Shown: positions 36,259-53,430 of the stretch, in pieces
How positions within the stretch are numbered: the stretch's first letter is position 1
How the letters are laid out: each line of letters opens with the position of its first letter
Source of the DNA: Deltaproteobacteria bacterium
GTDB lineage: Bacteria; Desulfobacterota; Desulfobulbia; Desulfobulbales; SURF-16
Assembly: GCA_016219175.1 (NCBI GenBank)
Contig: JACRCD010000039.1
Span: forward strand, 186,001 to 250,000
DNA: 64,000 bases
Direction: 5' to 3'
Translations under genes and position numbers: made by a program
The notes under the pieces: model-generated
Seen by the model: the letters and a program-made list of their open reading frames with translations, nothing else
What the model was told of the DNA's origin: nothing
The model's database searches: none

Positions 36259-37767
36259 TCAGGGGATGCAGTCCGTCCGCCCCATTTCCTGGGCAAAAAC
36301 GGCAAGGGTGGTGAGATTGCCGGCGGTGGCGACTGCGGATAAATCATGGCCATCCATATCTCCGTCACGATCCATATCCCCGGCACACAGATTAACATCA
36401 GGCATAAGAGAAAGGGCCTGGCGAACTTGCATGAATCCAGCGCCGTAATCATTGTCGGACCCCGGCAGACCCTGATCCCAGGCGGATTGTTGCAAGGCGC
36501 TTTCAAGCTCGGTAACCGTTGCCCCGGGAGAGGCGGAGAGCAGCAGCGCCATTGCGCCGCTGACATGGGGAGATGCAAAGGAGGTGCCCGTTACCGTGGT
36601 GTACGGATTGGGGTTTGGTATGCCGGAAAGAGTGGTCAGATCAGCCGTGCGGACACTGGCCCCGGGCGCGGCAATGTCAGGGAAAACGGCATTGTCGCAG
36701 GATGAAGGGCCTCTGCTGCTGAAAAAAGCGATGGTATCTGTTGAATCCGTGGCGCCCACGGCGAATGATTCGGGATAATTTGCCGGACTGATGCTGGTGT
36801 AAGGGGAGGGGCCGTTGTTGCCCGCGGAAAACACCACGGCAATCTCCGCCGCCTTGAGGGTTTGGATGTCCGGCTGGAACTCAAGCAAGCATTCATCGGG
36901 ATTCGTGGTAAATCCCCAGGAATTGTTGACGATATCCGGCGCGTCATCGCTAAGGGGATTGTTGTCCGGGTCAAGCAGCCATTGATAGCCCAGGTGGATA
37001 ACGCTCAGAGGGGCCTTGTCCTGATCATTAAATATCTTCACGGCGATCCATTGGGCGCCGGGGGCCACGCCGATGGCGGTACCGCCGGCGTCGCCGCCGA
37101 CCAGCAAGCCCATTACCTGGGTGCCGTGTCCAGTCGCATCATAAGGGAGGAGGTGTTCGCCGTTGGGATCATACCAGCTGTTGGCTCCTCCGCGCCAACG
37201 CTCTTGCAGATCGGCATGATTGACATCCACCCCCGTGTCCATGGAGGCCAGCACCACCCCCTGGCCGGTGAAGCCGAGAGCCCAGAGTTCCGGGGCGCCG
37301 ATGGCGTCAATGTTCCATTCCGGCAGGGATGTGACGTTGGTCTGTTCAGGAACCAGGGAAATGACCTCATCGACTCTGATGGATTCAACCGCCGGATGGG
37401 CCGCGAGTTTTTTGATGAGGGATGCTTTGGCGGAAAGGGAAATGGCATTGGTCAGCCAAAGGGATCGCACCCGTGTTGCCTGGTCCGCTGCCGCCATTTC
37501 CAGCACGCCTTTTTGGCTGACGGCCGCCTTTTTTTGCAGGGCCGTGATCAGCTGGCTGCGGCGCAGCCCCTTGGGGAGATTGCTGAAAGACGCGGGATTA
37601 ACGCGGTCACGCAGGTTGACAATGACCGGGGTCTCCTCATCCGGACCAAGAGCAGCGATGGTGTCCCGCAGGGCAGGACTGATAACCGCCGGCCAGGCCG
37701 GCTGCCCCGCGGCCAAGGAAAGCAGCAGGGCGGCCGCACTTATGCGCAATACTTTTTTTATGAACAT
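36259..37767 (-). CDS. Secreted subtilisin-like serine protease (S8) with dockerin-like tail
   Basis: 502 aa. Signal peptide to about residue 27. A short I9-like propeptide region precedes the catalytic domain. The triad is intact: Asp177 in ASMDTGVDVNHADL, His214 in GHGTQVMG and Ser396 in GTSFASPHVSGAMALL; the oxyanion Asn is Asn317 in SAGNNGP. The end (CAGDMDRDGDMDGHDLSAVA) is a Ca-binding, dockerin-like repeat of the kind found on three other proteins upstream. It is last in the minus-strand secreted-protein locus and may process or be docked with those proteins. Confidence 0.92.
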   Translation of the reverse strand: MFIKKVLRISAAALLLSLAAGQPAWPAVISPALRDTIAALGPDEETPVIVNLRDRVNPASFSNLPKGLRRSQLITALQKKAAVSQKGVLEMAAADQATRVRSLWLTNAISLSAKASLIKKLAAHPAVESIRVDEVISLVPEQTNVTSLPEWNIDAIGAPELWALGFTGQGVVLASMDTGVDVNHADLQERWRGGANSWYDPNGEHLLPYDATGHGTQVMGLLVGGDAGGTAIGVAPGAQWIAVKIFNDQDKAPLSVIHLGYQWLLDPDNNPLSDDAPDIVNNSWGFTTNPDECLLEFQPDIQTLKAAEIAVVFSAGNNGPSPYTSISPANYPESFAVGATDSTDTIAFFSSRGPSSCDNAVFPDIAAPGASVRTADLTTLSGIPNPNPYTTVTGTSFASPHVSGAMALLLSASPGATVTELESALQQSAWDQGLPGSDNDYGAGFMQVRQALSLMPDVNLCAGDMDRDGDMDGHDLSAVATAGNLTTLAVFAQEMGRTDCIP

Positions 37768-37856: not shown

Positions 37857-38345
37857 CTACTCAACAACCAGATTCTCCGCCCGGAAGTCTCCCATGACAA
37901 CCGTCACCTTGCTGCCCGCCTTGACATGGGAGCCGGAATTGGCAAAAAGGCAGAAATAAATTTTGCCGGCCTGGGGCTCGCCCGTGGTCTGCCTTAAGGC
38001 GCCGATTTTTGGGGTAGTCGGCACGGCAAGTTTTACTCCACTGGCCTGATCTTCCAGGTAAATCTTTAATTTGTGGTCAGAGGTGATCTTGACAGCCTTT
38101 ATGGGGTCAGTAACGCGATAGCGGAAATCCAGCATGGCGCCCTCGGCCGAGAGGCGGAGCGTTTCCGGGCGGATGCCCCATTGCTCCTCAAGACCCGCAT
38201 AGGCGTCTGAGGCCCTGGTTTCTTGCGGTGGCGGACTCTGGCCATGGGGCGCACAGCCTTGCAGACCGTGCACCACCCCCGGCAAACAGACCAGAAAAAA
38301 GAGGAGCAGGTATTTCCGTTGGTAAGCGCTACAATTAAATTTCAT
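37857..38345 (-). CDS. Small hypothetical lipoprotein
   Basis: 162 aa. N-terminal signal with a hydrophobic core (LLLFFLVCLPGVVHGL) and a plausible lipobox LQGC; mature part Pro-rich then beta-strand rich (AMLDFRYRVTDPIKAVKI, KIYLEDQASGVKLAV, GSKVTVVMGDF). No family recognised. It lies 89 bp upstream of the protease and 100 bp downstream of the third oxidase-like gene, so it probably belongs to the same unit. A role as outer-membrane anchor or assembly factor is speculative. Confidence 0.65.
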   Translation of the reverse strand: MKFNCSAYQRKYLLLFFLVCLPGVVHGLQGCAPHGQSPPPQETRASDAYAGLEEQWGIRPETLRLSAEGAMLDFRYRVTDPIKAVKITSDHKLKIYLEDQASGVKLAVPTTPKIGALRQTTGEPQAGKIYFCLFANSGSHVKAGSKVTVVMGDFRAENLVVE

Positions 38346-38445: not shown

Positions 38446-39642
38446 TCATGGGGTAAGACAGTTTGTTTTCCCCCAATCAGCCAGCAGCAGTGAATAGTCC
38501 GCAGCATTAACAAAGCCGTCATTATTAATATCACCGTTGCAGGGGCTGGCGCTACTGCAATTTGTCTTGCCCCAGTCAGCCAGCAGCAGGGAAAAGTCGG
38601 TCACATTCACATTGCCGCTGTTATTTAAGTCGCCATTGCAGCCATTGACAAAGAACTGGGTCTGCATGCCGCCGTTGCCTGTCGCTGCGCCGTTGGTTAA
38701 ATCAAGCATGCGGTCATAGATGCTGTATTTCCCCTTTGGAGGAGCAACCACCGCATCCAGGGTTTTACCGGCGCTAAGCAAGACGGAATACTGTTCACGC
38801 GCATAGGGGTAGAGATTGCCGTCTTCGGCCACAATGCTCATGTTCGGTCCGACCAGAACTGGGACATGATCCTTGAGCGCGGCGCTGAGAAAGCGGATGA
38901 GCAGCGTTTCCCCCGGTTTCGGTTTGTGGTCGACAACAGGGGTTGCGGCAGGATAGGGAGCACCGTTAATAAGAAAATAGCTGGGCTGGTAATCGATGGT
39001 GCTCGGATAGGCTGCCGTCCCATACGTGCCGCCCGTCACGGCGGCATGGAGAGCGGGATCGATTTCGCTGTAGAACAGAACCATCTCATTAACATAGGGC
39101 ACGCCCGGGTAAGCTGAGCCGGCGGACGTATCCTGGATGGCTGCGCCATAGAGACCCATCTGCACCTGCACGGCCGGATGGGTGCCGCTCTGGTAAATAT
39201 AGGTGCCCGGTCTGAGATTGTTCCAGGTGTATGTCCCGGTCGCGCCGGGGGCTGTTTCAAAGGTAAAGGAGCGCACCCTTTCCCGTCCCGTCCCGTCGAT
39301 AAACTTCACCGGCGTCATTGATGTTGTCTGACCGGGGATGACAAGGGACACCTCCTCGGCCAGATCGTTGCGCAGGTGAATGTTTAAAACAGGGTCAGTG
39401 GGCGCCACGGTGATCATCGGTCCGGGGACCGTCGCTGTTTCCCCTCCGTCAGTGGCGAGGTTGCCATCCGCGTCCGCGGCAAACCCCCACATGGTTATCT
39501 GCGCCCCATCCGGCATGGGTTTAATGAACGGCTTGGCGACAAGATAGACATCCGCTGCCTGGCAGGTAGCGCTGGCGGCAAAGAAGCCCAATAACCCGAA
39601 TACAATACTTTTAAGGCCTATCGGCTGTTGATATTTTTTCAT
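38446..39642 (-). CDS. Multicopper-oxidase-like protein C, copper ligands lost, two dockerin-like repeats
   Basis: Start at 39642 (MKKYQQ) gives 398 aa and avoids overlap with the upstream gene; the frame stays open to 39690. Signal peptide to about residue 29. Two cupredoxin-like halves align with the neighbouring oxidases (PGPMITVAPTDPVLNIHLRN, GTYIYQSGTHPAVQVQMGLYG), but His and Cys ligands are replaced, for example YQSGTH where the family has YHCHxxxxxH. It is probably a non-enzymatic relative. The C-terminus has two Ca-binding dockerin-like repeats (CNGDLNNSGNVNVTDFSLLL, then CNGDINNDGFVNAADYSLLL), each closed by GKTNC. Confidence 0.8.
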   Translation of the reverse strand: MKKYQQPIGLKSIVFGLLGFFAASATCQAADVYLVAKPFIKPMPDGAQITMWGFAADADGNLATDGGETATVPGPMITVAPTDPVLNIHLRNDLAEEVSLVIPGQTTSMTPVKFIDGTGRERVRSFTFETAPGATGTYTWNNLRPGTYIYQSGTHPAVQVQMGLYGAAIQDTSAGSAYPGVPYVNEMVLFYSEIDPALHAAVTGGTYGTAAYPSTIDYQPSYFLINGAPYPAATPVVDHKPKPGETLLIRFLSAALKDHVPVLVGPNMSIVAEDGNLYPYAREQYSVLLSAGKTLDAVVAPPKGKYSIYDRMLDLTNGAATGNGGMQTQFFVNGCNGDLNNSGNVNVTDFSLLLADWGKTNCSSASPCNGDINNDGFVNAADYSLLLADWGKTNCLTP

Positions 39643-39658
39643 TAGGAGTACCCCCGAC

Positions 39659-40963
39659 CTATGGAATAATAACATTGGGCGGTTCAACAACCATCATGGT
39701 CATCATGCCGCCGGGAAAGATATTGAAGTTTGTCAGTTCCCTTTCTGTATGGGAATGCCACATGAAAAAATAGCCGCCGTTCATATTCAGGCCGCCTTCA
39801 CCGGGCGGAAGCTGTGCGGAATTGCCCATATAGGGACTGCCCGACCAAAAGCCGCCGAAGACCAGGTCCTGTTTTTCCGGCAGAAGCACCGGGAACTGCT
39901 TGTTGTGATCAGCACAGTACTCATGGGTCACATCATCGAAGCCGTCGCCGCTGTTGTCAACACAGTCGTGCTCGTAGCCGACGCCGGCGCCGTAGATATC
40001 CCAGCCCAAATCCTTACCGGTCCAGGTGAAGATAGCATCAACCGTCTCTTCCGGCTCATTCTGGATCGTGAATTCAGAGGCTGCCAGATCCGGAGTTACG
40101 CCGTCGGTGGACAGCAGTCTGCCGTCTTTGGCGATAATGGTTGCATTGTTGCCGTGGACATGGAACGGGTGGATCTCCCGGCCGGCGGCAACAACGTGCA
40201 GAAGCAGTTTCTTGCCGGGATTGGTGCGGGGCAGACAGTTATATGGCTGATGAGGCAGCCAGGGGGCATAGGCAGGACCCATGGTATCAGGGGCCATGCG
40301 GCCGTTGATCAGCCACAGGGCGGACACGCGTTTGCTGTTGTCTATCTGATTGGCCATGCCGAACTCGACCATGTCATGCACATTGGGATCGATGTCGGAA
40401 AGGACAAAGAGGTATTCGTGATCAAAGGCGGTGTCGCCTGTCCCGTATGCTGTTTTATTGGCGGGACTGTAGCCGGCCGGCCTGACAATAATCACGCCCG
40501 CCAGTCCCATTTCGATTTGCAGCTCCGGCCTGGTGCCGCTGTGATAGGTGTAAGTGCCGGGCTGGCTGGCGGTGAAGGTGTAGGTCACCGTGTCCGTTGC
40601 CGAGGTGGACTCCCGGGTCAGCAGTCCCTGACTGCCGCCGCTTGCCGTTACGCTGTGGCCCGGAAAGAGGATGGAAACCGGGTTGCCGGCCGGAAGTTCA
40701 TTGGTCAGATTAATGGTGATCACATCACCCTGGTTGACAATAAGTGTGGGGCCGGGATACTGCATCAGCCCATTGCCGTTGGCATAGCCCCACATCAAGA
40801 TGCTGCCGCCGTCAGGAGAGCTGATATGACCTTCTCTGACCGCGAAATTAAAGTTAGTGCCGGTGACGCCGTTCACAACGGCCTGGGCCTGACCCCCGAA
40901 CAACATCAGGAGCATGAACACCACCGGAATCAGAATTCCTTGTTTTCCGTTCATTCTATTCAT
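39659..40963 (-). CDS. Multicopper-oxidase-like protein B (partial copper site)
   Basis: 434 aa. AAGGAGAG lies 7 nt before the ATG. Signal peptide to about residue 28 (LFGGQAQA). Cupredoxin fold with PGPTLIVNQGDVITINLTNE. The HxxHxH box is intact (HPFHVHG, 265-271). The C-terminal box, normally HCHxxxH...M, reads WHSHTERELTN (402-412): the type 1 Cys is Ser and the first-half ligands are also degenerate (YHSGTRPELQIEMG). A canonical four-copper centre is therefore unlikely in this chain alone. It lies 11 nt downstream of oxidase A, so the two may assemble together. Confidence 0.85.
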   Translation of the reverse strand: MNRMNGKQGILIPVVFMLLMLFGGQAQAVVNGVTGTNFNFAVREGHISSPDGGSILMWGYANGNGLMQYPGPTLIVNQGDVITINLTNELPAGNPVSILFPGHSVTASGGSQGLLTRESTSATDTVTYTFTASQPGTYTYHSGTRPELQIEMGLAGVIIVRPAGYSPANKTAYGTGDTAFDHEYLFVLSDIDPNVHDMVEFGMANQIDNSKRVSALWLINGRMAPDTMGPAYAPWLPHQPYNCLPRTNPGKKLLLHVVAAGREIHPFHVHGNNATIIAKDGRLLSTDGVTPDLAASEFTIQNEPEETVDAIFTWTGKDLGWDIYGAGVGYEHDCVDNSGDGFDDVTHEYCADHNKQFPVLLPEKQDLVFGGFWSGSPYMGNSAQLPPGEGGLNMNGGYFFMWHSHTERELTNFNIFPGGMMTMMVVEPPNVIIP

Positions 40964-40974
40964 GGAGTCTCTCC

Positions 40975-42246
40975 TTAATTGGTGATCAGGATCTCGGTCA
41001 TCATGCCGCCGAAATCTTCTGTGTTATTGGTAAGGTAGTTAAGATTGGTCGTGTAGAAAAAATAGGTGCCCGGTTCAATGCCCGCGGTGTCGAGGATGAC
41101 ATCAACGGACTCGCCGCCCCCCAGGGTCACCGAACTGGTCTTGTAATAAAGATTCTGGCCAAGCAGCGGGCCATTGCCGTCAGGGTCGGCGCCCCGCAGC
41201 AATCTCGCGTCCTTGCCCACCACCTGCATGGGAATACTCGGACTTGCCATGGTATAAAACCGGGTCACATTCAGATTGGAGATGCGCAGAAGAACTTTTT
41301 CTCCGGCAACGGCCTCAATCAGGGTACTGACCGGCTGGGAAACCTTGCCGTTGTTTTTCACCGGAGCCGGCAGAGGGTCCGGGTTAACCGTATCAGGATA
41401 TCCCCGGCCGTTCAGCATGGCGTATTTGTCCTTCATGGCGGCAAAGGGCAGAGGCTGCACCGACTCGCTGGCGTCATGGAAGGCGGGGTCAAAGGAGCCG
41501 ATCTGAATAGGATATTCCTTGTCAACATAGGTGGAGCCATCCCCGTCATTCAAGGCATACTTGTAGCCGGTATGGTGGATGAAGCCGTTTAGGTCGGTGT
41601 TGTCCGGCAGCCTGTTCTGGGCCGGCTGTACGTACAGATTGCCGAGCATGCCCATCTGCATGTGTTCCGCCGCCTCCACATGGCAGTGGTACATGTGTGT
41701 TCCGGGCTCGGCCAGCTGGTAATAATAGGTCAAGGTCGAGCCCATGACGATGGCTACGGCTGAATCCGGCAGGCCGTCAAAAACAGGCGCCGCATTGGGA
41801 AAGCCGTGAAAGTGCACGCTGTGCGCGTCAAAAAGGTCCGGACGCAGCATCATACCTACGTTGGTCAGGCTCAGATAAAAATTGTCTCCTTCCCGTAAAA
41901 TAATGGAAGGAGCCGGGAAATTTGCAGCGAATATGCCGGTTTCAAGGACTTGATTGTCGGGCAGACCCGTGACATTGGCGAAGCCGAATATGTAAGTTTC
42001 CTTGCCGTCCGCCATGGTAACAAAACCGTCACCGCCGGTCAGATGCATGCACACCTGGCTGGGGGTAAGGGGATTGCTGATCTCATCGTCGGTGGCGCGC
42101 AGCATGCCGTCGCCATTTGTATCGCTGTCCGCCGCAGGATCAAAGCCTGGACATTGGAATGACACAGCCCCGAGAGCGGCCGTGACTCCTGCCTGCAGCA
42201 AAAAGACAGCGAGAAGTGGCGCAAGGTAGTATCTCTTTGTTTTCAT
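40975..42246 (-). CDS. Multicopper-oxidase-like protein A with intact HxHG and HCH boxes
   Basis: 423 aa. Signal peptide to about residue 26. An EF-hand-like Ca loop (DTNGDGMLRATDDE, about 42-55) follows. The first copper box SVHFHGF is at 143-149, and the second, HMYHCHVEAAEHMQMGM at 184-200, has Cys188, flanking His, His195 and Met ligands of a type 1 copper site. The C-terminal half is cupredoxin-like but lacks the HPxHxH box, which is present in protein B. Proteins A and B thus have complementary ligand sets. Likely periplasmic or extracellular. Confidence 0.87.
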   Translation of the reverse strand: MKTKRYYLAPLLAVFLLQAGVTAALGAVSFQCPGFDPAADSDTNGDGMLRATDDEISNPLTPSQVCMHLTGGDGFVTMADGKETYIFGFANVTGLPDNQVLETGIFAANFPAPSIILREGDNFYLSLTNVGMMLRPDLFDAHSVHFHGFPNAAPVFDGLPDSAVAIVMGSTLTYYYQLAEPGTHMYHCHVEAAEHMQMGMLGNLYVQPAQNRLPDNTDLNGFIHHTGYKYALNDGDGSTYVDKEYPIQIGSFDPAFHDASESVQPLPFAAMKDKYAMLNGRGYPDTVNPDPLPAPVKNNGKVSQPVSTLIEAVAGEKVLLRISNLNVTRFYTMASPSIPMQVVGKDARLLRGADPDGNGPLLGQNLYYKTSSVTLGGGESVDVILDTAGIEPGTYFFYTTNLNYLTNNTEDFGGMMTEILITN

Positions 42247-42330
42247 TTTATTACTCCCTTCACTTCTTGTGTTCGTGAGTGATTGGAGTCATCCGCCGGT
42301 CGTTGCCGGAGGATGACTCCTGGATTTAAG

Positions 42331-45300
42331 TTAATTTAAGCAGTCAGTCCGGCCAAAGTCACCCATGAGAATGGCGTAATCCTGGACGTTGACCCGACCG
42401 TCGCCATTAAGGTCCGCGCTGCAGGGTGATGCCGCGCTGCAGTCGGTGCGCCCCCATTGGGACAACAGAATTGAAAAATCAGTGACATTAACCACTCCAT
42501 TATTGTTGATGTCACCCCGGCAGGAATTCTGCGGAGCCGTGCCTGACTCCAATTCGTCCGCGCCGATATCCGGACCGTTGCCGAGAGGCCTGTTATCATC
42601 GTCGAAATCCTTGACCAGCTCGGCAAATCCGTTGATTGCCGCAGCGTTGCCGCCATCAACGGCCGGGGAACCGGCCCCGATGTGGTAGTTGCCGAAAAGC
42701 ACGCCGGTAACGGGATTCCACAGGGTGAGCGGGCCGAACCGGACATCAATGAAGTTGCCGCCTTCATCAAGCGCCGGAGCGGCTTGAATGCCGGTGGTGA
42801 CTTCAGGCAGAACCAGCCAGCCGCGGTCGCCGTTGACATACTCGCTGACGAAAAGCGGATCCGCCGCGATGTTGCTGGCATCATAGGGAGTCGGGTCCGT
42901 CAGCACGGAAAACAACGGATTCAAGGTGGCGGCGCTGCCGAGCACGGCCAGGTCGTTATAGACCGGAGCCTCGCCAACCCCTATATTCGGCACCAGTCCG
43001 GTACCGAGGAGCCAGTAAAAGGAGCGGTTGTGCCAGATGATGTTGTTGACCAGCGCCGGATTTGAAAAATCAGATCCGGTGATCGCGGCAAGCGCCGGGC
43101 TGTGCAGCCGTGAAACAAGGCCTGCCGGCTGCGGGTTGGACTGAGACGGAATGCCGGGAGTAAAGGCCTCTCCCGCCGTGCCCGTACTGTCGTTGTTGGC
43201 GATGGTGTTATGAATAATGTTGACGTTGGCCGCGTCCTGCATGGAGATGCCGCCGCCGGCCAGGCCCGCCCCATTATTTGTGATCATGTTGTTGAACAGA
43301 TTCACCAGATACCACTGGGCGAGATTACCGGGCGCGGCTTCAATATCCTGGCCGTTGGTCCGGCTCAGGCGGATGCCGCCGCCGTCTCCGGCGCCGGCCA
43401 GGTTGCCCTGGATGGTGTTTGAGACGACCTGCACGGACCCGCTGCCGGGGCTCAGCAGTGAACCGCCGGGGACCGGAGCGGAACCAGCGATCAGCAAACC
43501 GCCGCCATTAACGGTCTGTCCCTGGTTGAATGACTGATTGAAGATAATCATGTTGTCGGCGATAATACCGTTATTGCTCAAACCAACATGGGCCAGACCC
43601 GCCCCTTCACCCAGGGTGAAGTTGCCGCAGATGAAGTTGGCGGAGACAGAGTAGCCGTCTGAACCGGTGGCAAGGGTAATGCCGCCGCCGGCGTTGCCGT
43701 CGCTGATACCCGCGTTTCGGGTAATCTGGTTGTTGTGGATGTTCAGGAAATCATTCAGGCTGTCCACATAATCCGTATCGGTGGTCAGGGTTTGATGTCC
43801 TGCGCGGATACCGCCGCCGAAGACGCCCTGGTTGCCGAAAATGTTATTGTTGCTGATTTCAAGATACTGGGCGCGGCCGTTCACCATGATGGCCCCCCCG
43901 TTGTCGGCGCCGGTAATGGTGAAACCGTCGATGCGGGCGCCGGGGTTCTGGGCGAATTCATTATTCCTGCCAAGCACCAGAACGCCTGCTCCTTCTTCAG
44001 CAAAAAGCGTGGCCGGTTCGATGCCGGTAAAGCCGACAGCCTGTCCGGGCAGGAGATAAGTCGGATCGCCGCCCATCGCGGGATCAACCAGATTCTGCAG
44101 CAGAGCCCGCCAGGCCACCAGGGCCTCGGAAGGATCTCTGACGGCGTTGATCGCCGTGGAGCCGGGACCCCAGCCCTGCAGCTTCACGGGTTTCCACATG
44201 ATAACCGACTCCTGATAAGTGCCGGGAGGGACCAGGATGAGGCTACCGGGCGCGGCGTTGTCAACCGCGGCCTGGATTGAGCCGCCTTGGGGCACATGAA
44301 CAGGAGGCAGCGCTTCGTTAACAGACAGCGTCACCCCGGTAAGGGTCGATTTGTTATTGTCGCTTCTGGTCACCACCAGCTCGCCCGTGACGGTGCCTGA
44401 GGCAACCCGGCCGACGATGATATCGGGCGACCAGGCGTCAATGAGCAGTTCGGTGCCGCCGATGGTCACTTTTCCGGAACCGCCGAAACCATAATCCCTG
44501 GTAATGGTGGTTTGGCTGGCCGGATCTGCGGGGTTGTACGCGGGATTGGGCACTACCGCCGCGGCCCCCTCGGAGAGAATGGTGATGGAGTTGGTGCCGT
44601 TGGCCACAGGAACATACGGACCGCCGTTAGGACCGCTCACCGAGTAGATTTTCGGAGTGCCGTCGCCGAACTCGCAGTCAAGACTGTCCTGGCCAGGGCC
44701 GGCAAAGGCGGCAACCGGCACCACCGGGGTGTCCAGGTAGGTGGTTGTTCCCGCCATGAAGTCAAACGTGTAACAGAACTGGCTGTATTTACGGTTGAAG
44801 AAAGGATCAATCATCGTCTGGCCCGGATGGGCCGGATCAGGGACTGGGCCCGGGCTGTTCATGCACAGGGTGTACATGCCGGGAGACATGCCGCTGGGGT
44901 TGGGTATATTGGTGGTAAATGTTGAGGGTACCAGCATATTATAGGTACCCCACTCGTCGGAGTACACCCGGTTGATTTCCTTGCCGGTCCAGTCCCGGAT
45001 GGAAATGGGCAGGAAGGGGGGGGCGTATTTTTCGCCGAACATGATGGCGTTCGGGTCGAATTCATTGCTGATGTCATCAAGAATAAAGCCGACGGCATGG
45101 CCGGCAATGGGCACTTCTGTATACATGAAGAAGTCCACCGCCGCGTTTTTGCCGTTATTCAGGGCTATCTGTTTCTTGTCGCAGAGCTTAAGCGTCTGGC
45201 CGGCCAGGGGCGCGGGCACGCCGGGGAAGAGGGACAGCTCCGCCGGAACGACGTATGCGTCGCCCACGCAGACAGGCGGCAGCAGCAGCGGCGACGGAAC

Positions 45301-47637
45301 ATACTCTTCGCCGAAGTCCACGGCCTTGTCCTGGGATTTATAAATTTCATAGCCATTGGGGGCTACGGCCTGCACGATATACATGGCTTCGGGTAGACCC
45401 GGCACCTCGGCGTTGCCTGAGTTGATACCGCCAGGGATGTAGGAGGTGAAGGCATAGCCGCCGTCAAACACGGCGGGGCGGACCTGGTTCCAGTTCCTCA
45501 TGCCGTCGTAGCACTTGGCGTTCATGTAAAAGGTGTCAAGCGGATCGCCGGGGCAGCCGTCAGGCTTGCTGTCATCCCAGCTGTCGGTGTTGGCTGTCTG
45601 GATGGCGTCGGCTCGGTTGAGTATGCCGTCATTATTGACATCATCAACGATACCGTCGGCGCCGTTAAAAATGCCGTTGCTGTTCCAGTCAACGTCCTCC
45701 ACTCCGGGGAAATTACCAATCGGAGGGTGGTCATGGTCGCCATCGGCGTAAAGGTTGACCTCGACGCGGGGGATGCCCGGCTGCCAAGGCTCTGGTGCCG
45801 CCTGTTCCGGGTCGTCTTCCGCCCGGGTGGTATCGTAGAAGACAATACCGGAAATGCCGCCGTTTTCACCGGGGCTATAAGCTTTTTTACCCCATTCGAT
45901 GACATTGGTCTGGCCCAGGAAGGCCTGGAAGCCCTGAAGCAGCACCGGCCCCGTTTCCGTGCGGAAGGGCAGGGGGGTTGTTGCCTGGGCGCCGGTTCGC
46001 GGGTCGATCAGGGGCGCGCCGGTGGACAGGTCGTTGACCGGCTGCAGCTGTGGGTTCAACACACCGTCAAAGCTCCACGGGTCATTGATATCAACGGCCC
46101 CGCCAGCATCGGTAATCATGGTGGCGCCGGTCGCCTTGAACCGTCCGAAGTCGACCTCGGCCACCAGCCAGTTGAAAAAGGGGAAAACCTCGTCATAGGG
46201 GGCGTTGCCCTCCATGTCCGTGGGGAATGACTGATAAACGGAACCATCGCGCCAGCGGATGTTGGTCGGCACCTCGGTGAGACCCACCTCGTCGCCTGCC
46301 GTCAAATCGTCGCAGGTTGCGGTAACGCAGTCGCGGAAGCCGTTTTCGTTGGCGTCATAAAAGACATGCTGCTCCAGTCTGGCAAACCACTGAAAGACAG
46401 GGACCGGTCCGAGATCGCAGTTGGCAAGGGCATTGCAGCTGCCGTCCGCGTTGACGGTCACATTGTAAAAGGCAAAGATCAGGTCCAGGTTGTCGTCCCA
46501 GACGGCCAGCTGGTAATTGCCCGGCGGCACATCAGGGATGGTGAAGGAGCCGTCCGCGTTTGTGGCCTGGGCAAAAACACCCGTGCCGATACCGGCGGCC
46601 ATGTCGTTTAGACCAACCCAGGCGGTGGTGTGGGCGATGGGCGCGCCGTTAAAAAAGAACTGCTGGGTCGTATCGGATGTGCGGGCCAGATGATTATTGA
46701 TGATTTGCCCGCTGATGCTGGGTCCCGCGCCAGGATCGGAGACGGTGTTCATCGGCTGGATAAAACCGATGGCGACATGGGGCCCAGGCGTGCCGAATTC
46801 CCGGAAAAATCCCGGTTCATTGGCCTTGGGCCAGGCATCAATGATCTTGGTGCCCTCAATGGTGGCGGTCTGCACCCAGTTCTGCCCCGCCGGCGGCACG
46901 GCCTGTATGCCGTATTTGCCCGGGGCGAGATACTTGATGGCCGCAAAGCCGTTGGCGTCGGTCAGAATAACGCCGTTGCCCATGACGAGCATGTTGCCGG
47001 CCGCGTCATAGGTGGTGCCCAGGGGATTGCCGTACACATCATAACTCTGCTGGCCGGCGGAAATGCCATAGCGGCCGCCGCCGTCCTCCAGCACGATGGT
47101 AAATCCAGCCAGACCCGGCTCCTCGGGGCTATCCCAGGCGTTGTTGATGGGCTGGTTGTCGTGATAAACCTGGATGGTTATCTGGGCCGTGGGCAGGGGT
47201 TGCTCTGTTACAATAACAGTCACTTCGGTCTGGCCCGGTTTCACGGACGCGGCGCCAAGGGAATAACCGATGGGCCTGGCCGGGCTTTTCTGGTCGGGCA
47301 GCACGGTGACGAAATAGCGCTTCTGGGTGTCGGCCACGGCGATATTGGCGCTTGACCCCGGTGAGGCGCCTTTATCCACCACCGGCATATAGCTTGCGTG
47401 AAAATTGACGGCAAGGTTTTCCGGGTTGTTTACCCCGGGGGTAACGGCATAGGTGGCGTCCTCTTCGACAAGCCAGCGGAACCCGCTCACCGCGACGCCG
47501 TTACTGTCAACCACATTGACGGTAAAGGCCCGGGCATCCATACCCGTAAAACTCGCGCATAGGAATGTCAGAAAAGAAAAGAACGCCGGCGCCCAGGAGC
47601 GGGCCCTGTTCTTTTGTAAATACGGATGTCTATTCAT
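42331..47637 (-). CDS. Giant secreted beta-sandwich/beta-helix protein with dockerin-like repeats
   Basis: 1768 aa from ATG 47637, chosen because GGAGG (47646-47650) lies 8 nt upstream; the frame stays open to 47685. Signal peptide to about residue 37. Residues about 170-900 contain prealbumin/SdrD-like beta modules (TDANGFAAIKYLAPGKYGIQ, DGSFTIPDVPPGNYQLAV, GISGIVFYDTTRAED). An IPT-like module is near 1015-1130. A right-handed parallel beta-helix follows, from GGSIQAAVDNAAPGSLILVP to about 1650, closed by a DFDDDNRPLGNGPDIGADE segment. Residues 1706-1768 are two dockerin-like repeats (CRGDINNNGVVNVTDFSILL and CSADLNGDGRVNVQDYAILM). It is probably a surface scaffold or adhesin for the oxidases. 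Confidence 0.85.
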   Translation of the reverse strand: MNRHPYLQKNRARSWAPAFFSFLTFLCASFTGMDARAFTVNVVDSNGVAVSGFRWLVEEDATYAVTPGVNNPENLAVNFHASYMPVVDKGASPGSSANIAVADTQKRYFVTVLPDQKSPARPIGYSLGAASVKPGQTEVTVIVTEQPLPTAQITIQVYHDNQPINNAWDSPEEPGLAGFTIVLEDGGGRYGISAGQQSYDVYGNPLGTTYDAAGNMLVMGNGVILTDANGFAAIKYLAPGKYGIQAVPPAGQNWVQTATIEGTKIIDAWPKANEPGFFREFGTPGPHVAIGFIQPMNTVSDPGAGPSISGQIINNHLARTSDTTQQFFFNGAPIAHTTAWVGLNDMAAGIGTGVFAQATNADGSFTIPDVPPGNYQLAVWDDNLDLIFAFYNVTVNADGSCNALANCDLGPVPVFQWFARLEQHVFYDANENGFRDCVTATCDDLTAGDEVGLTEVPTNIRWRDGSVYQSFPTDMEGNAPYDEVFPFFNWLVAEVDFGRFKATGATMITDAGGAVDINDPWSFDGVLNPQLQPVNDLSTGAPLIDPRTGAQATTPLPFRTETGPVLLQGFQAFLGQTNVIEWGKKAYSPGENGGISGIVFYDTTRAEDDPEQAAPEPWQPGIPRVEVNLYADGDHDHPPIGNFPGVEDVDWNSNGIFNGADGIVDDVNNDGILNRADAIQTANTDSWDDSKPDGCPGDPLDTFYMNAKCYDGMRNWNQVRPAVFDGGYAFTSYIPGGINSGNAEVPGLPEAMYIVQAVAPNGYEIYKSQDKAVDFGEEYVPSPLLLPPVCVGDAYVVPAELSLFPGVPAPLAGQTLKLCDKKQIALNNGKNAAVDFFMYTEVPIAGHAVGFILDDISNEFDPNAIMFGEKYAPPFLPISIRDWTGKEINRVYSDEWGTYNMLVPSTFTTNIPNPSGMSPGMYTLCMNSPGPVPDPAHPGQTMIDPFFNRKYSQFCYTFDFMAGTTTYLDTPVVPVAAFAGPGQDSLDCEFGDGTPKIYSVSGPNGGPYVPVANGTNSITILSEGAAAVVPNPAYNPADPASQTTITRDYGFGGSGKVTIGGTELLIDAWSPDIIVGRVASGTVTGELVVTRSDNNKSTLTGVTLSVNEALPPVHVPQGGSIQAAVDNAAPGSLILVPPGTYQESVIMWKPVKLQGWGPGSTAINAVRDPSEALVAWRALLQNLVDPAMGGDPTYLLPGQAVGFTGIEPATLFAEEGAGVLVLGRNNEFAQNPGARIDGFTITGADNGGAIMVNGRAQYLEISNNNIFGNQGVFGGGIRAGHQTLTTDTDYVDSLNDFLNIHNNQITRNAGISDGNAGGGITLATGSDGYSVSANFICGNFTLGEGAGLAHVGLSNNGIIADNMIIFNQSFNQGQTVNGGGLLIAGSAPVPGGSLLSPGSGSVQVVSNTIQGNLAGAGDGGGIRLSRTNGQDIEAAPGNLAQWYLVNLFNNMITNNGAGLAGGGISMQDAANVNIIHNTIANNDSTGTAGEAFTPGIPSQSNPQPAGLVSRLHSPALAAITGSDFSNPALVNNIIWHNRSFYWLLGTGLVPNIGVGEAPVYNDLAVLGSAATLNPLFSVLTDPTPYDASNIAADPLFVSEYVNGDRGWLVLPEVTTGIQAAPALDEGGNFIDVRFGPLTLWNPVTGVLFGNYHIGAGSPAVDGGNAAAINGFAELVKDFDDDNRPLGNGPDIGADELESGTAPQNSCRGDINNNGVVNVTDFSILLSQWGRTDCSAASPCSADLNGDGRVNVQDYAILMGDFGRTDCLN

Positions 47638-47677
47638 GAATCTATCCTCCCTTGTTGGCGGGCTGAAAGCTGGAAAG

Positions 47678-47717
47678 CGGCTCAAGCACCCAAATATGAG
47701 TTTGTATGCTTGAGCCG
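47678..47717 (-). terminator. Intercistronic hairpin
   Basis: CGGCTCAAGCA (47678-47688) and its exact complement (47707-47717) enclose an 18-nt loop. It lies between the cohesin-like gene and the giant gene. No U-run follows on the minus strand, so partial termination or a processing or stability element is more likely than a full stop. Confidence 0.5.
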
Positions 47718-47780
47718 TTTTCAGGCAGGGTTTTCAGGCAGGCGCCTTGTTTCTCTGCTCAGAAAGCTTTTGTGCAATCC

Positions 47781-48422
47781 TTATCCGCGTGCTTCCCGGC
47801 GTTTTTTGCGTAATCCGGCGATACCGGCCAGACCCGCGCCAAGCAGCCAAACGGTTCCGGGCAGGGGAACAGCTGCCGTCACCTGGGCGTCCTGGAAGGT
47901 GGTCAAGCCATCAAAATCAAAGCCGTCAAAGGCTCCAAAATCGGTGTCAAGGGGATTCAGATCAGCCAGGTCCAAGATAAAAGAACCGGCCCCGAGGTTT
48001 GTGAAGCTTATCGAAGCAAGCTTCAGCGGCGGGGTGGTTGCCAGGCCTCCCGGGTTCATAAAATCGAAATTGAGCGCGCCAAGCGAGACATTGCCCGGCG
48101 CCACGTTATTGGCAGTGGGGATATTCCACGGGGGAGCGATGGCGGCGGAATTAGCGGTGGCCAGCAGTGAATCAAAGCTGACGTTTAAGCCATAGCCGAG
48201 TAAACCGCCGTGAGCCCCGCCCAGCATGTCGACAAAATCGCTGGCATAGATGTCGGCGGTGAAAAGAGAGCCGGGAGTGATGTTCAATGTCGTATCCGCC
48301 AGGGTGTCGCCGTTAAAGTCAAAATAGACAGAAGGCGCGGCCGAGGCGGGCGCTGCCTGAATCAGCGGGGCAGAGACCAGTAGAAACAATGACGCGCTAA
48401 GTAAGGTGAGTTTTTTTTTCAT
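47781..48422 (-). CDS. Cohesin-like secreted protein with PEP-CTERM-like sorting tail
   Basis: 213 aa. Signal peptide to about residue 23 (VSAPLIQAAPA). The body resembles a cohesin-type beta-sandwich: DTTLNITPGSLFTADIYASD, then LLGYGLNVSFDSLLATAN, then LASISFTNLGAGSFILDLAD. The C-terminus is PLPGTVWLLGAGLAGIAGL followed by RKKRR, a PEP-CTERM-like membrane tail recognised by exosortase. Proteins encoded downstream carry dockerin-like repeats, the partners of cohesins. It overlaps the preceding small ORF by 26 nt and is the first large gene behind the riboswitch. Confidence 0.7.
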   Translation of the reverse strand: MKKKLTLLSASLFLLVSAPLIQAAPASAAPSVYFDFNGDTLADTTLNITPGSLFTADIYASDFVDMLGGAHGGLLGYGLNVSFDSLLATANSAAIAPPWNIPTANNVAPGNVSLGALNFDFMNPGGLATTPPLKLASISFTNLGAGSFILDLADLNPLDTDFGAFDGFDFDGLTTFQDAQVTAAVPLPGTVWLLGAGLAGIAGLRKKRREARG

Positions 48423-48657
48423 GATAGTTCTCCTTTTTCATTTTTCCTTTTTCTTTATTTTGCCGGCGATGCCCATCCGGCTCATTCCACAGTTTTTTGG
48501 CCGTCAGGCGCAGTTTGCACGCGTTGTCCAGAACGGTGCCGTAAAATATGAGACTCTTTTCATCGTCGGTAGTCAGGGCATATCGCCCGGAAAGCGTGAC
48601 CAGCAATTCGGAAAGGTTGATTAACTGCCGTATGTTGTGGTCGCGGATATTTTCCAC
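48397..48657 (-). CDS. Small hypothetical protein behind the riboswitch
   Basis: 86 aa, GTG start with AAGGGAG about 11 nt upstream. Mostly helical and charged: IRQLINLSELLVTLSGRYAL, then DDEKSLIFYGTVLDNACKLR, ending in a Lys-rich tail that overlaps the cohesin-like gene by 26 nt. No signal peptide and no known family. It is the first ORF of the transcript from the sigma-54 promoter at 48824 and may act as a translational lead or as a small cytosolic regulator. Confidence 0.55.
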   Translation of the reverse strand: MENIRDHNIRQLINLSELLVTLSGRYALTTDDEKSLIFYGTVLDNACKLRLTAKKLWNEPDGHRRQNKEKGKMKKENYHEKKTHLT

Positions 48658-48678: not shown

Positions 48679-48785
48679 AAAAAAAAAGCCGGGTTGCCTG
48701 TTTTTGCAACCCGGCTGTCTCGTTATCCAGGAGACCCGCGGCTTTCCGTCCTCACCTCGCGATGAGTTTGGCGCATTTCTGCTAC
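48679..48785 (-). ncRNA. GEMM-like cyclic-dinucleotide riboswitch with terminator
   Basis: On the minus strand the leader matches the GEMM-I layout: CCAAAC, hairpin CTCATC-GCGA-GGTGAG with a GNRA loop, GGACGGAAAGCC, hairpin GGGTCTC...GAGAC, and AGCCGGGTTGC. That last segment can instead pair with GCAACCCGGC followed by nine U (stem 48688-48697/48706-48715), a Rho-independent terminator. Ligand binding should hold the segment in the aptamer and allow read-through, an ON switch. The base equivalent to ligand-contacting G20 reads C or G depending on alignment, so c-di-GMP versus cGAMP cannot be decided. Confidence 0.75.
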
Positions 48786-48808
48786 GTTGTGACGTTGCGA
48801 ATAGTTAC

Positions 48809-48824
48809 TGCAATGGTTGTGCCG
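48809..48824 (-). promoter_or_regulatory. Sigma-54 (-24/-12) promoter of the secreted-protein locus
   Basis: Minus-strand CGGCACAACCATTGCA fits TGGCACG-N4-TTGCW with correct spacing (GG 48823-48822, GC 48811-48810). The start site would fall near 48798, just before the riboswitch aptamer. The sigma-54 activator encoded at 49319-50713 lies directly upstream. Confidence 0.75.
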
Positions 48825-48927
48825 TTAACGTTTTGTCGTTAATTTTTTCTATAACTTGCTGAAATTATAGATATTTATGCTGAGGAAATTTTGCCGGACA
48901 GGCGGGAATTGTATCGCGGACAGGAAG

Positions 48928-49097
48928 TGAGACAGCAGCTGGAGAAGAAATATCCAAGGAGAGCAAGACTAAATGGGAAGACAAACCGTTTAATATAATA
49001 CGTCTTCAGTCCGTGTCCGGAAACTGTCTCATAAAATGATCGCTTATTGTCTCAGAAGGAAATATTTGAGACAGTGAGAATGCGAGACAATGAGACA
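48928..49097 (-). promoter_or_regulatory. Cluster of TGAGACA/TGTCTCA heptamers, candidate enhancer
   Basis: TGAGACA or its complement occurs at 48928-48934, 49025-49031, 49048-49054, 49067-49073 and 49091-49097, plus GAGACA at 49084-49089. The 49048/49067 pair forms an inverted repeat with a 12-nt spacer. They lie 100-270 bp upstream of the -24/-12 promoter at 48824. The rest of 48825-49318 is AT-rich with no gene. Confidence 0.65.
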
Positions 49098-49318: not shown

Positions 49319-50713
49319 TTAGCCGGCCAGTTTTTTACTGAAGAAACGGTACAGGGTGGCCCGGCCGACACCGAGCATCTTGGCTGCTTCGCTTTTGTTG
49401 CCGCCGGTTTTTTCAAGGGCGGCCCGGACGGCGGCCATGTCGAGTTTGGGCGTGGCCTCTCTGGGGGTCATTATTCCGGCAAGCGTATCCGCGGCAGGGT
49501 TTGCATAACCTTGTAAATATTGAGGGAAATGGTGGGGCTCGATGATATCGGTTTTGCATTTCATCAGGGCAAACTGGATGGTGTTTTGCAGCTCCCTGAT
49601 GTTTCCCGGCCAGGTGTGCAATTTCAAAAGGCTCACGGATTGGGGGCATAGGGTTTTTCTAGTCTCGCCCCGATTGTTTGCCGATTCCGCCAGAAAATGA
49701 TTGGCCAGAAGAATAACATCATCGCCGCGCTCACGTAAATTCGAGATATTGATGGGCACGACGCAGAGCCGGTAATAAAGATCAAGCCGGAAAAGGCCGG
49801 TTGTGATTTCATCCTCCAGTTTTTTGTTCGTCGCGCTGAGGAGCCGCGCATCCACTTTAATGGTGGAGGTGCCGCCGATTCTTTCAAATGTCCCCTCCTG
49901 CAGAACCCTGAGAAGCTTCACCTGGACCGAAAGATCAAGTTCCCCGATTTCATCCAGGAAGATAGTGCCTCCGTCAGCCAGTTCGAATCTGCCTTTTTTG
50001 GTATACAGGGCGCCGGTAAAGGCCCCTTTTTCGTGGCCGAAAAGTTCACTCTCCAGAAGGGTATGGGGAAGGGCGCCGCAGTTTACCGCGATAAAAGGCA
50101 TGCTGTTGCGTGGGCCGGCATCGTGGATGGCGCGGGCAACCAGCTCCTTGCCCGTGCCGCTGGCCCCCTGGATTAAAACAGGCAGGTCGACCCGCGAGGC
50201 CTCGTAGATAAGGCCGTAAAGTTCTTTGACGGATTGATGTTCGCCGATGATCCTCTGGGAAAACAGCCTGTTTTCCGGCTGGCAGACCTCCTCAAGTTGC
50301 GAGATGTTGTTGATGATGACAATGGCATAGCGTTTTCCCAGGAAAGAAAAGGGGCTGGCGCTGATATGCAGCTTGACGTTCCGTGATTTGCCGTCGAAAA
50401 CAAGCTGGAAATTGCCCTGGGCCTGATTCTTTCGATTGAGCTGAAGCGCATCGGCCGCGGCCCGGCGGGTCACGCAGGTGTTGCAGTAAACCGTTGACCC
50501 GCAACCGTTGGGGGATCTGATCGCATTGATGCAGTTGAGTATGTCGCCGCCGCACTTGCCGACGGCCTCATCGTTTTTTACGCCGATAATTTTTTCAATG
50601 ACATTGTTTATCTGCCGGATGCGCAGGTCTGCATCCAGGACAAGCACCCCGCAGGGAATTTCATTGAGAAGGGTTTTGATGAAGCTGCTGTTTTGAAGTT
50701 CATCCTGGATCAA
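49319..50713 (-). CDS. Sigma-54-dependent transcriptional activator with Cys-rich PAS domain
   Basis: 464 aa. Residues about 10-135 form a PAS domain interrupted by a cysteine cluster: Cys54, 61, 71, 77 and 80 (ending VYCNTC), suited to an Fe-S cluster, heme, metal or redox switch. The AAA+ domain has GASGTGKE, GAFTGA and IFLDEIGELD. A Fis-type helix-turn-helix ends the protein (NKSEAAKMLGVGRATLYRF). There is no receiver domain, so the PAS is the likely signal input. It sits between two -24/-12 promoters, one for the downstream secreted locus and one for the divergent 12-heme cytochrome, and is the obvious candidate activator for both. Confidence 0.93.
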   Translation of the reverse strand: MIQDELQNSSFIKTLLNEIPCGVLVLDADLRIRQINNVIEKIIGVKNDEAVGKCGGDILNCINAIRSPNGCGSTVYCNTCVTRRAAADALQLNRKNQAQGNFQLVFDGKSRNVKLHISASPFSFLGKRYAIVIINNISQLEEVCQPENRLFSQRIIGEHQSVKELYGLIYEASRVDLPVLIQGASGTGKELVARAIHDAGPRNSMPFIAVNCGALPHTLLESELFGHEKGAFTGALYTKKGRFELADGGTIFLDEIGELDLSVQVKLLRVLQEGTFERIGGTSTIKVDARLLSATNKKLEDEITTGLFRLDLYYRLCVVPINISNLRERGDDVILLANHFLAESANNRGETRKTLCPQSVSLLKLHTWPGNIRELQNTIQFALMKCKTDIIEPHHFPQYLQGYANPAADTLAGIMTPREATPKLDMAAVRAALEKTGGNKSEAAKMLGVGRATLYRFFSKKLAG

Positions 50714-51191: not shown

Positions 51192-51207
51192 GGGCACGTT
51201 GTTTGCT
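51192..51207 (+). promoter_or_regulatory. Sigma-54 (-24/-12) promoter of the 12-heme cytochrome
   Basis: GGGCACGTTGTTTGCT fits TGGCACG-N4-TTGCW with one mismatch and correct GG-GC spacing (51193-51194, 51205-51206). A start near 51218 leaves a leader of about 190 nt before the ATG at 51412. The 50824-51191 stretch holds no supported gene. Confidence 0.7.
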
Positions 51208-51411: not shown

Positions 51412-53430
51412 ATGAAAAAAATTATTTTTACCGCAGCAATTTTTGCTTTGCTCTCAGGCACCGGCTCAGCCGCCACCCGGGGTATTGACATGTCCGCCAA
51501 TCCGGACCCGGCGCTGGCCGGCAACTCCGTGCGGCTGACCTGCACCGGTACCGGTGATTGGCGGAGCCCTCTGCGGTCGGCGCGGATCACCATCCGGGAT
51601 GCGGCGGACACCCAGTTGGTAACAGGGCAGAATATGCAGATTGACGGCTTGACCGCCACCTATGATTACACCGTGCCGGCCGATGAAATGACTGGGCAAT
51701 GGGATTTCAAGTGTGATCTTGCCGACAGAAGGAACAAGGCGAACAAAACATCCCCATTCACCGTCGCCGCAGTCCCCACCGGGGGCGGCTCGGGCGGTTC
51801 GGGCGGAATCGCGGCCCATCAGGCCATTACCTCCTATAATGGGCCGGCAACCTGTATCGCCTGTCATGAAGCCGAGGCTCAGGACATGCTGAACAGTCTG
51901 CACATGCAGTGGTCCGGACCCACCCCGGATGTGACCAACAGCACCGGCGATGACGGCAAGGGCGTGGGCGGCATCAATACCTTCTGCACCTATGCCGTAT
52001 CCTCCAAGGGCGCCTGTTACACCTGTCATATCAGGGCTGACGGCAATGCCCCCCATCCGCCCAGCGTCAATGACGTTGACTGTCTCATGTGCCATAATGA
52101 TATGTACCAGCGGACTTTTGTCCCGGATCCCGATCCGAATAATGCCGAGACCGTGGTCAATGTCAAAGGCGAAACAAAAACCTACGTCTTCGGTCTGGTT
52201 GACGCGGACGGCGATTACACCACCGTGCCTGACTATGCCAAGATGCCGTCGGGCACCACCATGGTCGGCCTGGCCCGCACCGTGCATCTGCCGACCAGGC
52301 AGTCCTGCCTGCGCTGTCATGCCAAGGCTGGCGGCGGTGACTGGACCAAGCGGGGGGACATGGGCGCCAACAGCGCCGCGCCGACAGTCACCCAGGACGT
52401 GCACATGTCAGCCGATGCGGGGGGCGCTGACCTGACCTGCTCGGCCTGCCATGCCGCATCCAGCCATAAGATCGGCGGCCGCGGCATTGATCTGCGCCAG
52501 ACCGAGGCCCCGGCCCCGAAATGCAGTGACTGCCACACCGCCGCGCCCCACGCCAACGCCACCTTGAACCGGCATGCCGCGGGCCAGGTGTCCTGCCAGG
52601 TTTGCCATATCCGTCATTTCGGCAAGGGCGGGGCCACCGAGATGTCCCGCGACTGGTTGACTCCGGTCTGGAATCCGGCCTTCTGTTCCGGCCAGGGCGG
52701 CTTTGTCGGCGAAGAGGTGAAGCTTGCCAATGTCAAGCCGGACTATACCTGGTTTGACGGCACCTCCGAGGTGTACAGCGTGGGCCAGACGATTCAGCCC
52801 GATGCCCAGGGCGTCTATTCCATGGCCAGCGCAAACGGCGAACCCTTTGACGGCAAATCGAAAATCGTGCCGATTAAACGTCACTCCTCCGTCATGCCGC
52901 TGCATGAGAGCGGCAAGATCGTGCCGCCGGCCATCATGTGGATGTTCATGACCGGTGATTTCGACCAGGCCGTGCGGAAAGGCATGGAGGATCAGGGCAT
53001 GACCGGCGGTTATCAGATGGTTGATGTTGACGCGGAACTGCTGATCACCCACGGCGTTGAGCCTAAGTCCATGGCCCCGGCCTGCACCGAGTGCCATGAC
53101 TACTCGGGCGAGACCCCGGATGGCGCCGGCATGGTGCCTTTCACCGAACTCGGCTATCATACCTGGCCGGCCAAGGTCAAGGACTGCACCCTGTGCCATG
53201 ACAAAAAAACCTTGTCCTGGCAGGGCATCCACCAGGAACACGCCAAGGACGGCGAGGGTAGCGGCATTCTCACCTGTGCGAGCTGCCACACCACCGAGCC
53301 CACCGGCCTGGTCAAGCCGAAAAGCGATCTGTGCAACGACTGCCATGGTTCGAAAACCTGGAGCAGCAACAGCCTGCATAAAAAACACCTTAGCAGGGGC
53401 TATGAATGTGTGAAATGTCATAAGTTCTAA
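51412..53430 (+). CDS. Dodecaheme c-type cytochrome with N-terminal Ig-like domain
   Basis: 672 aa with 12 CxxCH heme sites, in order CIACH, CYTCH, CLMCH, CLRCH, CSACH, CSDCH, CQVCH, CTECH, CTLCH, CASCH, CNDCH, CVKCH. Signal peptide to about residue 21 (LSGTGSAA); no lipobox. Residues about 22-115 look like an Ig-type beta domain, joined by a GGGSGGSGG linker to the heme part. CAGGAG precedes the ATG. It probably carries electrons in the periplasm or at the cell surface. It is divergent from the Cys-PAS sigma-54 activator and has its own sigma-54 promoter, so both are probably tuned to redox conditions. Confidence 0.95.
   Translation: MKKIIFTAAIFALLSGTGSAATRGIDMSANPDPALAGNSVRLTCTGTGDWRSPLRSARITIRDAADTQLVTGQNMQIDGLTATYDYTVPADEMTGQWDFKCDLADRRNKANKTSPFTVAAVPTGGGSGGSGGIAAHQAITSYNGPATCIACHEAEAQDMLNSLHMQWSGPTPDVTNSTGDDGKGVGGINTFCTYAVSSKGACYTCHIRADGNAPHPPSVNDVDCLMCHNDMYQRTFVPDPDPNNAETVVNVKGETKTYVFGLVDADGDYTTVPDYAKMPSGTTMVGLARTVHLPTRQSCLRCHAKAGGGDWTKRGDMGANSAAPTVTQDVHMSADAGGADLTCSACHAASSHKIGGRGIDLRQTEAPAPKCSDCHTAAPHANATLNRHAAGQVSCQVCHIRHFGKGGATEMSRDWLTPVWNPAFCSGQGGFVGEEVKLANVKPDYTWFDGTSEVYSVGQTIQPDAQGVYSMASANGEPFDGKSKIVPIKRHSSVMPLHESGKIVPPAIMWMFMTGDFDQAVRKGMEDQGMTGGYQMVDVDAELLITHGVEPKSMAPACTECHDYSGETPDGAGMVPFTELGYHTWPAKVKDCTLCHDKKTLSWQGIHQEHAKDGEGSGILTCASCHTTEPTGLVKPKSDLCNDCHGSKTWSSNSLHKKHLSRGYECVKCHKF

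Follow-up and report, generated by a model that had tools for sequence, protein, structure and literature searches.

A sigma-54 promoter and a predicted c-di-GMP-I riboswitch arranged in series before genes for surface proteins

We identified a locus on the minus strand of the window (the whole 64-kb stretch of DNA that was analysed) in which enhancer-type repeats, a sigma-54 promoter and a c-di-GMP-I riboswitch precede a surface-protein operon, and which quite probably acts as a serial two-input AND gate responding to an activator and to c-di-GMP. A signal would be received by the PAS domain of a sigma-54 activator encoded next to the promoter (49319-50713), which would thereby be switched on, bind the TGTCTC/GAGACA sites with which it is presumably paired, and allow sigma-54 polymerase to open at -24/-12. 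The nascent RNA would start with the c-di-GMP-I aptamer. When c-di-GMP is absent, the 3' strand of the aptamer would join a terminator and transcription would end about 120 nt out; when c-di-GMP is bound, the aptamer would retain this strand and polymerase would continue into the operon, reading through the genes for a small protein, a PEP-CTERM protein, a 1784-aa dockerin protein, multicopper oxidases and a subtilase. As the activator would permit initiation and c-di-GMP would permit read-through, full expression would need both. As this arrangement is found again in related bacteria, real two-signal control appears likely. The AND gate of the original prediction is thus plausible from the sigma-54 promoter, the enhancer sites, the GEMM-I aptamer and the ON-type terminator, and gains weight from conservation in two further genera. 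The comparison covered 22 genomes of the family, in which the genome of the window (G000) and the genomes G010 and G016 belong to three different genera.

The GEMM-like aptamer that had been noticed in the sequence was recovered in a covariance search, in which the c-di-GMP-I (GEMM-I) model RF01051 matched 48782-48702 (-) with 59 bits (gathering score 35, E 5.6e-9) as the only Rfam match in the 64-kb window. Its first hairpin has a GCGA tetraloop, a C-G closing pair and a GGAAAGCC junction. An intrinsic terminator at 48716-48680 (-) consists of an 11-bp stem (48716-48687) followed by 8 or 9 T, and the aptamer's 3' strand serves as its 5' arm, in G010 as well. The sharing of this strand by aptamer and terminator, also part of the original prediction, is evident from bases 48714-48708, which are used by both folds with different partners, so that the two forms are mutually exclusive. 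Following the usual layout of such elements, this would be an ON-type switch, in which the bound ligand would prevent the strand from joining the terminator. From the start of the aptamer to the T run, the leader folds with -40.8 kcal/mol in the terminator form, which is the minimum, compared to -29.6 kcal/mol with the Rfam aptamer pairs enforced, a difference calculated at equilibrium, whereas the folding takes place during transcription. Read-through in the ligand-free state may be large.

The expected ligand is c-di-GMP, because a G (48772, by alignment to RF01051) occupies the equivalent of Vc2 position 20, as it does in G010; position 20 guides selectivity but is not an absolute determinant. 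The equivalents of A47 and C92 are retained as well. The c-di-GMP-I-GGC variant (RF03167) was rejected: it scored 57.5 bits, below its cut-off of 59, and the window aptamer is not of this type because it keeps A, not G, at position 47. It is unlikely that the aptamer instead answers 3',3'-cGAMP, as GEMM-Ib switches do, and that the operon serves extracellular electron transfer. The first hairpin would suit such a reading, as its C-G closing pair and GGAAAGCC junction are those of the Geobacter cGAMP switch. In addition, cGAMP switches of Geobacter control surface electron-transfer genes (PMC6456294). They are, however, marked by A at position 20 (PMC6456294; PMC9262584), and a Geobacter GEMM-Ib switch loses its selectivity for cGAMP in favour of c-di-GMP upon A20G exchange (PMC6456294). 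Position 11 of the model is taken as the equivalent of G20 in Vc2, since G11 of Cd1 equals G20 of Vc2 (PMC9262584). The GEMM-Ib reading is disfavoured by the G found at 48772, and none of the 19 sigma-54-driven aptamers of the family described below precedes a multihaem cytochrome, a contrast that alone is not significant.

The promoter CGGCACAACCATTGCA at 48824-48809 (-) reads CGGCAC-N5-TTGCA with GG-N10-GC exact, in agreement with the -24/-12 promoter of exact spacing that had been proposed. With 15.8 of 19.3 bits it is the top-scoring sigma-54 site of the window on both strands, by an approximate matrix with weights set after the known consensus, and about 0.0003 sites as good would be expected by chance per 62-bp search space (first-order Markov). 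Sigma-54 itself (rpoN) is encoded in the G000 genome. From the position of the promoter, transcription is predicted to start at about 48798 (-), some 12 nt past the -12 GC, in line with the original prediction. That the operon is driven from a standard sigma-70 promoter ahead of the aptamer, with the -24/-12 match incidental and the c-di-GMP switch as sole regulation, seems improbable to us. A TATAAT hexamer is present at 48869-48864 (-), but it was rejected as a promoter, as it has no adequate -35 and is not conserved in G010, and the 1 kb scanned holds one sigma-70-like site (49019-48992) against 1.3 expected. Although a good -24/-12 site is lacking at 87 of the family's 106 c-di-GMP-I aptamers, the one described here is the best of 64 kb, is correctly placed and is accompanied by enhancers and an adjoining activator gene.

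The six TGAGACA-type repeats that had been reported upstream of the sigma-54 promoter are present as five exact TGAGACA in either orientation (48928, 49025, 49048, 49067 and 49091) and one CGAGACA (49084), together six TGTCTC/GAGACA sites. The main cluster at 49025-49097 (-) holds five of these (49091, 49084, 49067, 49048 and 49025) and lies 207-274 bp upstream of -24; the sixth, TGTCTCA, is found at 48928-48934 (-), about 110 bp upstream of -24. In 64 kb there are only seven copies of the exact heptamer, and the occurrence of five within 170 bp has a Poisson probability of about 3e-12. The sigma-54 activator (EBP) gene at 49319-50713 (-) matches PF00158 (227 bits), PF02954 (41 bits) and PAS_4 (25 bits). 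The encoded protein is composed of a PAS domain with a Cys-rich segment, an AAA+ domain with GAFTGA and a Fis-type HTH, and no receiver domain was found among its Pfam domains. PrsR was rejected as identity of this activator, given a TIGR02915 score of 314 bits against a cut-off of 502.6 and the absent receiver domain; no protein of the genome exceeds this cut-off, and the PEP-CTERM promoter motif 1 of Haft et al. (TTTACA end; defined in PMC1569441) is absent at the locus. The Cys-rich PAS segment (CGGDILNC..GCGSTVYCNTC) also occurs in G010 and is not obvious in the G016 activator. It may be a metal, Fe-S or haem cofactor site and the signal input.

The genes listed next all follow the switch in the minus orientation, separated by about 100 bp at most. 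The first encodes an 86-aa small protein with a GTG start (48397-48657), which matches no Pfam or NCBIfam family and has 69% identity over 55 aa in G010. It is followed by a 213-aa PEP-CTERM surface protein (47781-48422; PF07589 24.7 bits, cut-off 20.7; 47% identity in G010), so that the small protein is the better conserved of the two. The next genes encode a 1784-aa surface protein with C-terminal dockerin (42331-47685; PF00404 37 bits; 76% identity), two multicopper oxidases with PF07732/PF07731 (40975-42246, 76% identity, and 39659-40963, 75% identity) and a multicopper oxidase with dockerin (38446-39690; PF00404, PF00394; 64% identity). A 162-aa protein for which no family was found (37857-38345; 60% identity) is a probable operon member and an S8 subtilase (36259-37767; PF00082 182 bits; 61% identity) the probable last gene, both being syntenic in G010. 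This extent and end of the operon are predicted; a scan of the stretch gave 15 terminator candidates against 14.0 in shuffles, which is no excess.

An exosortase is encoded in the genome (TIGR02602 125 bits, cut-off 105.6). The PEP-CTERM protein shares one operon (38446-48422) with two dockerin proteins, namely the 1784-aa protein and a multicopper oxidase, and for this reason a cohesin was sought in it; none was detected by Pfam at E up to 10 or by PDB sequence search. The structure model of the PEP-CTERM protein has a mean pLDDT of 35. It is possible that the PEP-CTERM and dockerin proteins form a surface complex. The fit to oxidase and cytochrome genes that had been taken to point to electron transfer is not supported: the octahaem cytochrome gene (51412-53430, +) lies beyond the activator gene, divergent from it and not downstream of this switch, and the oxidases are multicopper oxidases with dockerin-bearing partners. 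A sigma-54-like site, GGGCACGTTGTTTGCT at 51192-51207 (+), with 14.6 bits, is located 220 bp before the octahaem cytochrome gene, and neither TGAGACA repeats nor a riboswitch were found at this site.

The locus is syntenic in G010, with 65% identity for the activator next to the values given above for the small protein (69% over 55 aa), the PEP-CTERM protein, the 1784-aa protein and the oxidases (64-76%). The DNA between the activator gene and the small gene is mostly diverged in G010, with the enhancer sites, aptamer, G20 and terminator kept. Four TGTCTC/GAGACA sites lie 233-265 bp upstream of -24, compared to 207-274 bp in the window. The G010 promoter has a perfect -24 and a weak -12 (GA for GC; 11.1 bits), which counts against the two-input gate. 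Contig C73 of G016 carries three units in a row, each made up of enhancer sites (4, 4 and 2 TGTCTC/GAGACA sites), a -24/-12 element (17.2, 12.2 and 14.9 bits), a c-di-GMP-I aptamer and an exported-protein gene. By sequence reading at least two of the three proteins have a PEP-CTERM-type tail (VPVPGAVWLLG..., VPIPGAVWLLG...). The Pfam PEP-CTERM model matches none of the three. It is very improbable that promoter and enhancers make a short terminated leader acting as a small RNA while the operon is expressed mainly from elsewhere, for even though the terminated form is the more stable state, the small gene and the PEP-CTERM gene lie directly downstream and are syntenic in G010, and in G016 a PEP-CTERM-type gene directly follows each of the three units.

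Genome-wide, clusters of three sites were found six times in G016, at one locus each in G000 and G010, in both of which the pattern is confined to this locus, and once each in G001, G017 and G020. A -24/-12 element (11-17 bits; 12-17 bits and 74-139 bp on for the six clusters of G016) lies downstream of every cluster in G000, G010 and G016, whereas the clusters in G001, G017 and G020, genomes with no activator relative, have no such promoter (best 1.3-6.4 bits). At E < 1e-90, a threshold fixed before the three-genome distribution was seen, activator relatives occur only in G000, G010 and G016 among the 22 family genomes. Because activator relatives and sigma-54-linked clusters occur in the same three genomes, the comparison ties activator, enhancer sites and promoters together across them, and binding of these sites by the activator is predicted. 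Counting against the two-input gate, the G016 activator has 43% identity over AAA+/HTH only and its gene is located elsewhere in the genome. At four further G016 genes, enhancer and promoter occur without an aptamer core, and therefore the riboswitch is not obligatory in the regulon. At one of these (G016 C3, L210:2144-3526), a TGTCTC/GAGACA cluster and a 15-bit -24/-12 element are followed by a receiver-PAS-GGDEF gene and then by a ShlB-type two-partner secretion gene. With its SGDEF motif, the receiver-PAS-GGDEF protein is possibly a diguanylate cyclase.

To cover the family, the 22 genomes were scanned for -24/-12 elements ending at most 60 nt before one of the 106 c-di-GMP-I aptamers over cut-off. 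Elements of at least 10 bits were found for 19 of the 106 at the true spacing, whereas six wrong spacings gave 0-3 and the opposite strand gave none; 1-6 further true-spacing sites in other upstream windows are perhaps due to tandem aptamers. A phylum sample of 247 genomes gave 21 pattern matches at the true spacing, with the aptamer confirmed by cmscan in 15 of 20 tested, and 8 in the +1-spacing control, none of which has an aptamer hairpin by inspection. In a public genome collection the exact pattern was matched 58 times; 51 matches are genuine aptamers by cmscan, and the remaining seven (L038, L056, L063, L066, L070, L079, L090) were dropped as they have no aptamer. The public matches span Desulfobacterota-type bacteria, Rokubacteria, Acidobacteria, Gemmatimonadota and Myxococcota, and also Spirochaetes, Ignavibacteria, Armatimonadetes, Dadabacteria and one gammaproteobacterium.

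Within the family, PEP-CTERM-like/fn3 surface genes follow 14 of the 19 sigma-54-driven aptamers and 5 of 82 others (Fisher p 2e-9, uncorrected for relatedness, gene classes being assigned by regular expression). For multihaem cytochromes the corresponding counts are 0 of 19 and 13 of 82 (p 0.12, not significant). Pfam counts in the wider set point the same way, with fn3, Big_9/cadherin, PEP-CTERM and pilin families after aptamers with a sigma-54 site and multihaem families after those without. As sigma-54-driven aptamers precede surface genes and not multihaem cytochromes, this argues against the electron-transfer reading, and the link to extracellular electron transfer in the original prediction is not borne out by either the G at position 20 or the gene counts. 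G000 contains two more c-di-GMP-I aptamers: L003 (C12:73261-73337), with a weaker -24/-12 element (13.2 bits), lies before a GGDEF-HD-GYP type gene, and L002, without a sigma-54 site, lies before a multihaem cytochrome.

It is possible, and tentatively put forward here, that a sigma-54 promoter directly before a c-di-GMP riboswitch is a recurrent, functionally distinct design for extracellular matrix and surface proteins, and that one and the same activator is able to switch on a diguanylate cyclase as well, as at G016 C3, giving a coherent feed-forward loop. One regulator would then start the transcripts and raise the messenger that lets these transcripts continue.

Both halves of the arrangement are known separately. 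The aptamer has the same fold, key residues and terminator using the aptamer 3' strand as known c-di-GMP-I switches with a transcription terminator (RF01051; architecture e.g. of G. metallireducens pilM); unlike these, it is preceded by an enhancer-dependent sigma-54 promoter, and unlike the cGAMP-type pilM switch, it has G at position 20. It resembles the Geobacter cGAMP (GEMM-Ib) switches before cytochrome and pilus genes (PMC6456294) in being a related aptamer class, in related bacteria, with a presumed ON logic, and differs in having G instead of A, PEP-CTERM and multicopper oxidase genes downstream, and the sigma-54 promoter. PEP-CTERM genes under control of sigma-54/PrsR have been described (Haft et al., 2006, PMC1569441) and pepA is RpoN-dependent (PMC9850573); motif 1 of the PrsK/PrsR regulon ends in TTTACA and lies 32-92 nt upstream of -24/-12 (PMC1569441). 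The present locus likewise places a PEP-CTERM gene behind a -24/-12 element and enhancer, bound there by an AAA+ activator and here only predicted to be bound. In contrast to the PrsR system, its activator is without receiver domain and below the PrsR cut-off, and its enhancer motif is another one, located further away and combined with a riboswitch gate. No paper in the literature searched (open-licence papers) was found to describe a transcript governed in series by sigma-54 activation and a c-di-GMP riboswitch, and within this literature the combination appears to be a new variant made from known parts.

As a simple search rule, a -24/-12 element at most 60 nt before a c-di-GMP-I aptamer would predict a whole set of genes; here it picked out PEP-CTERM and fn3 surface genes, and it separates two groups of GEMM-I targets within one family. 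The AND-gate and feed-forward ideas are thereby directly testable. If the two-signal gate is real, it would explain how surface proteins that are costly to make are restricted, in some environmental bacteria, to cells in which a specific cue coincides with high c-di-GMP.
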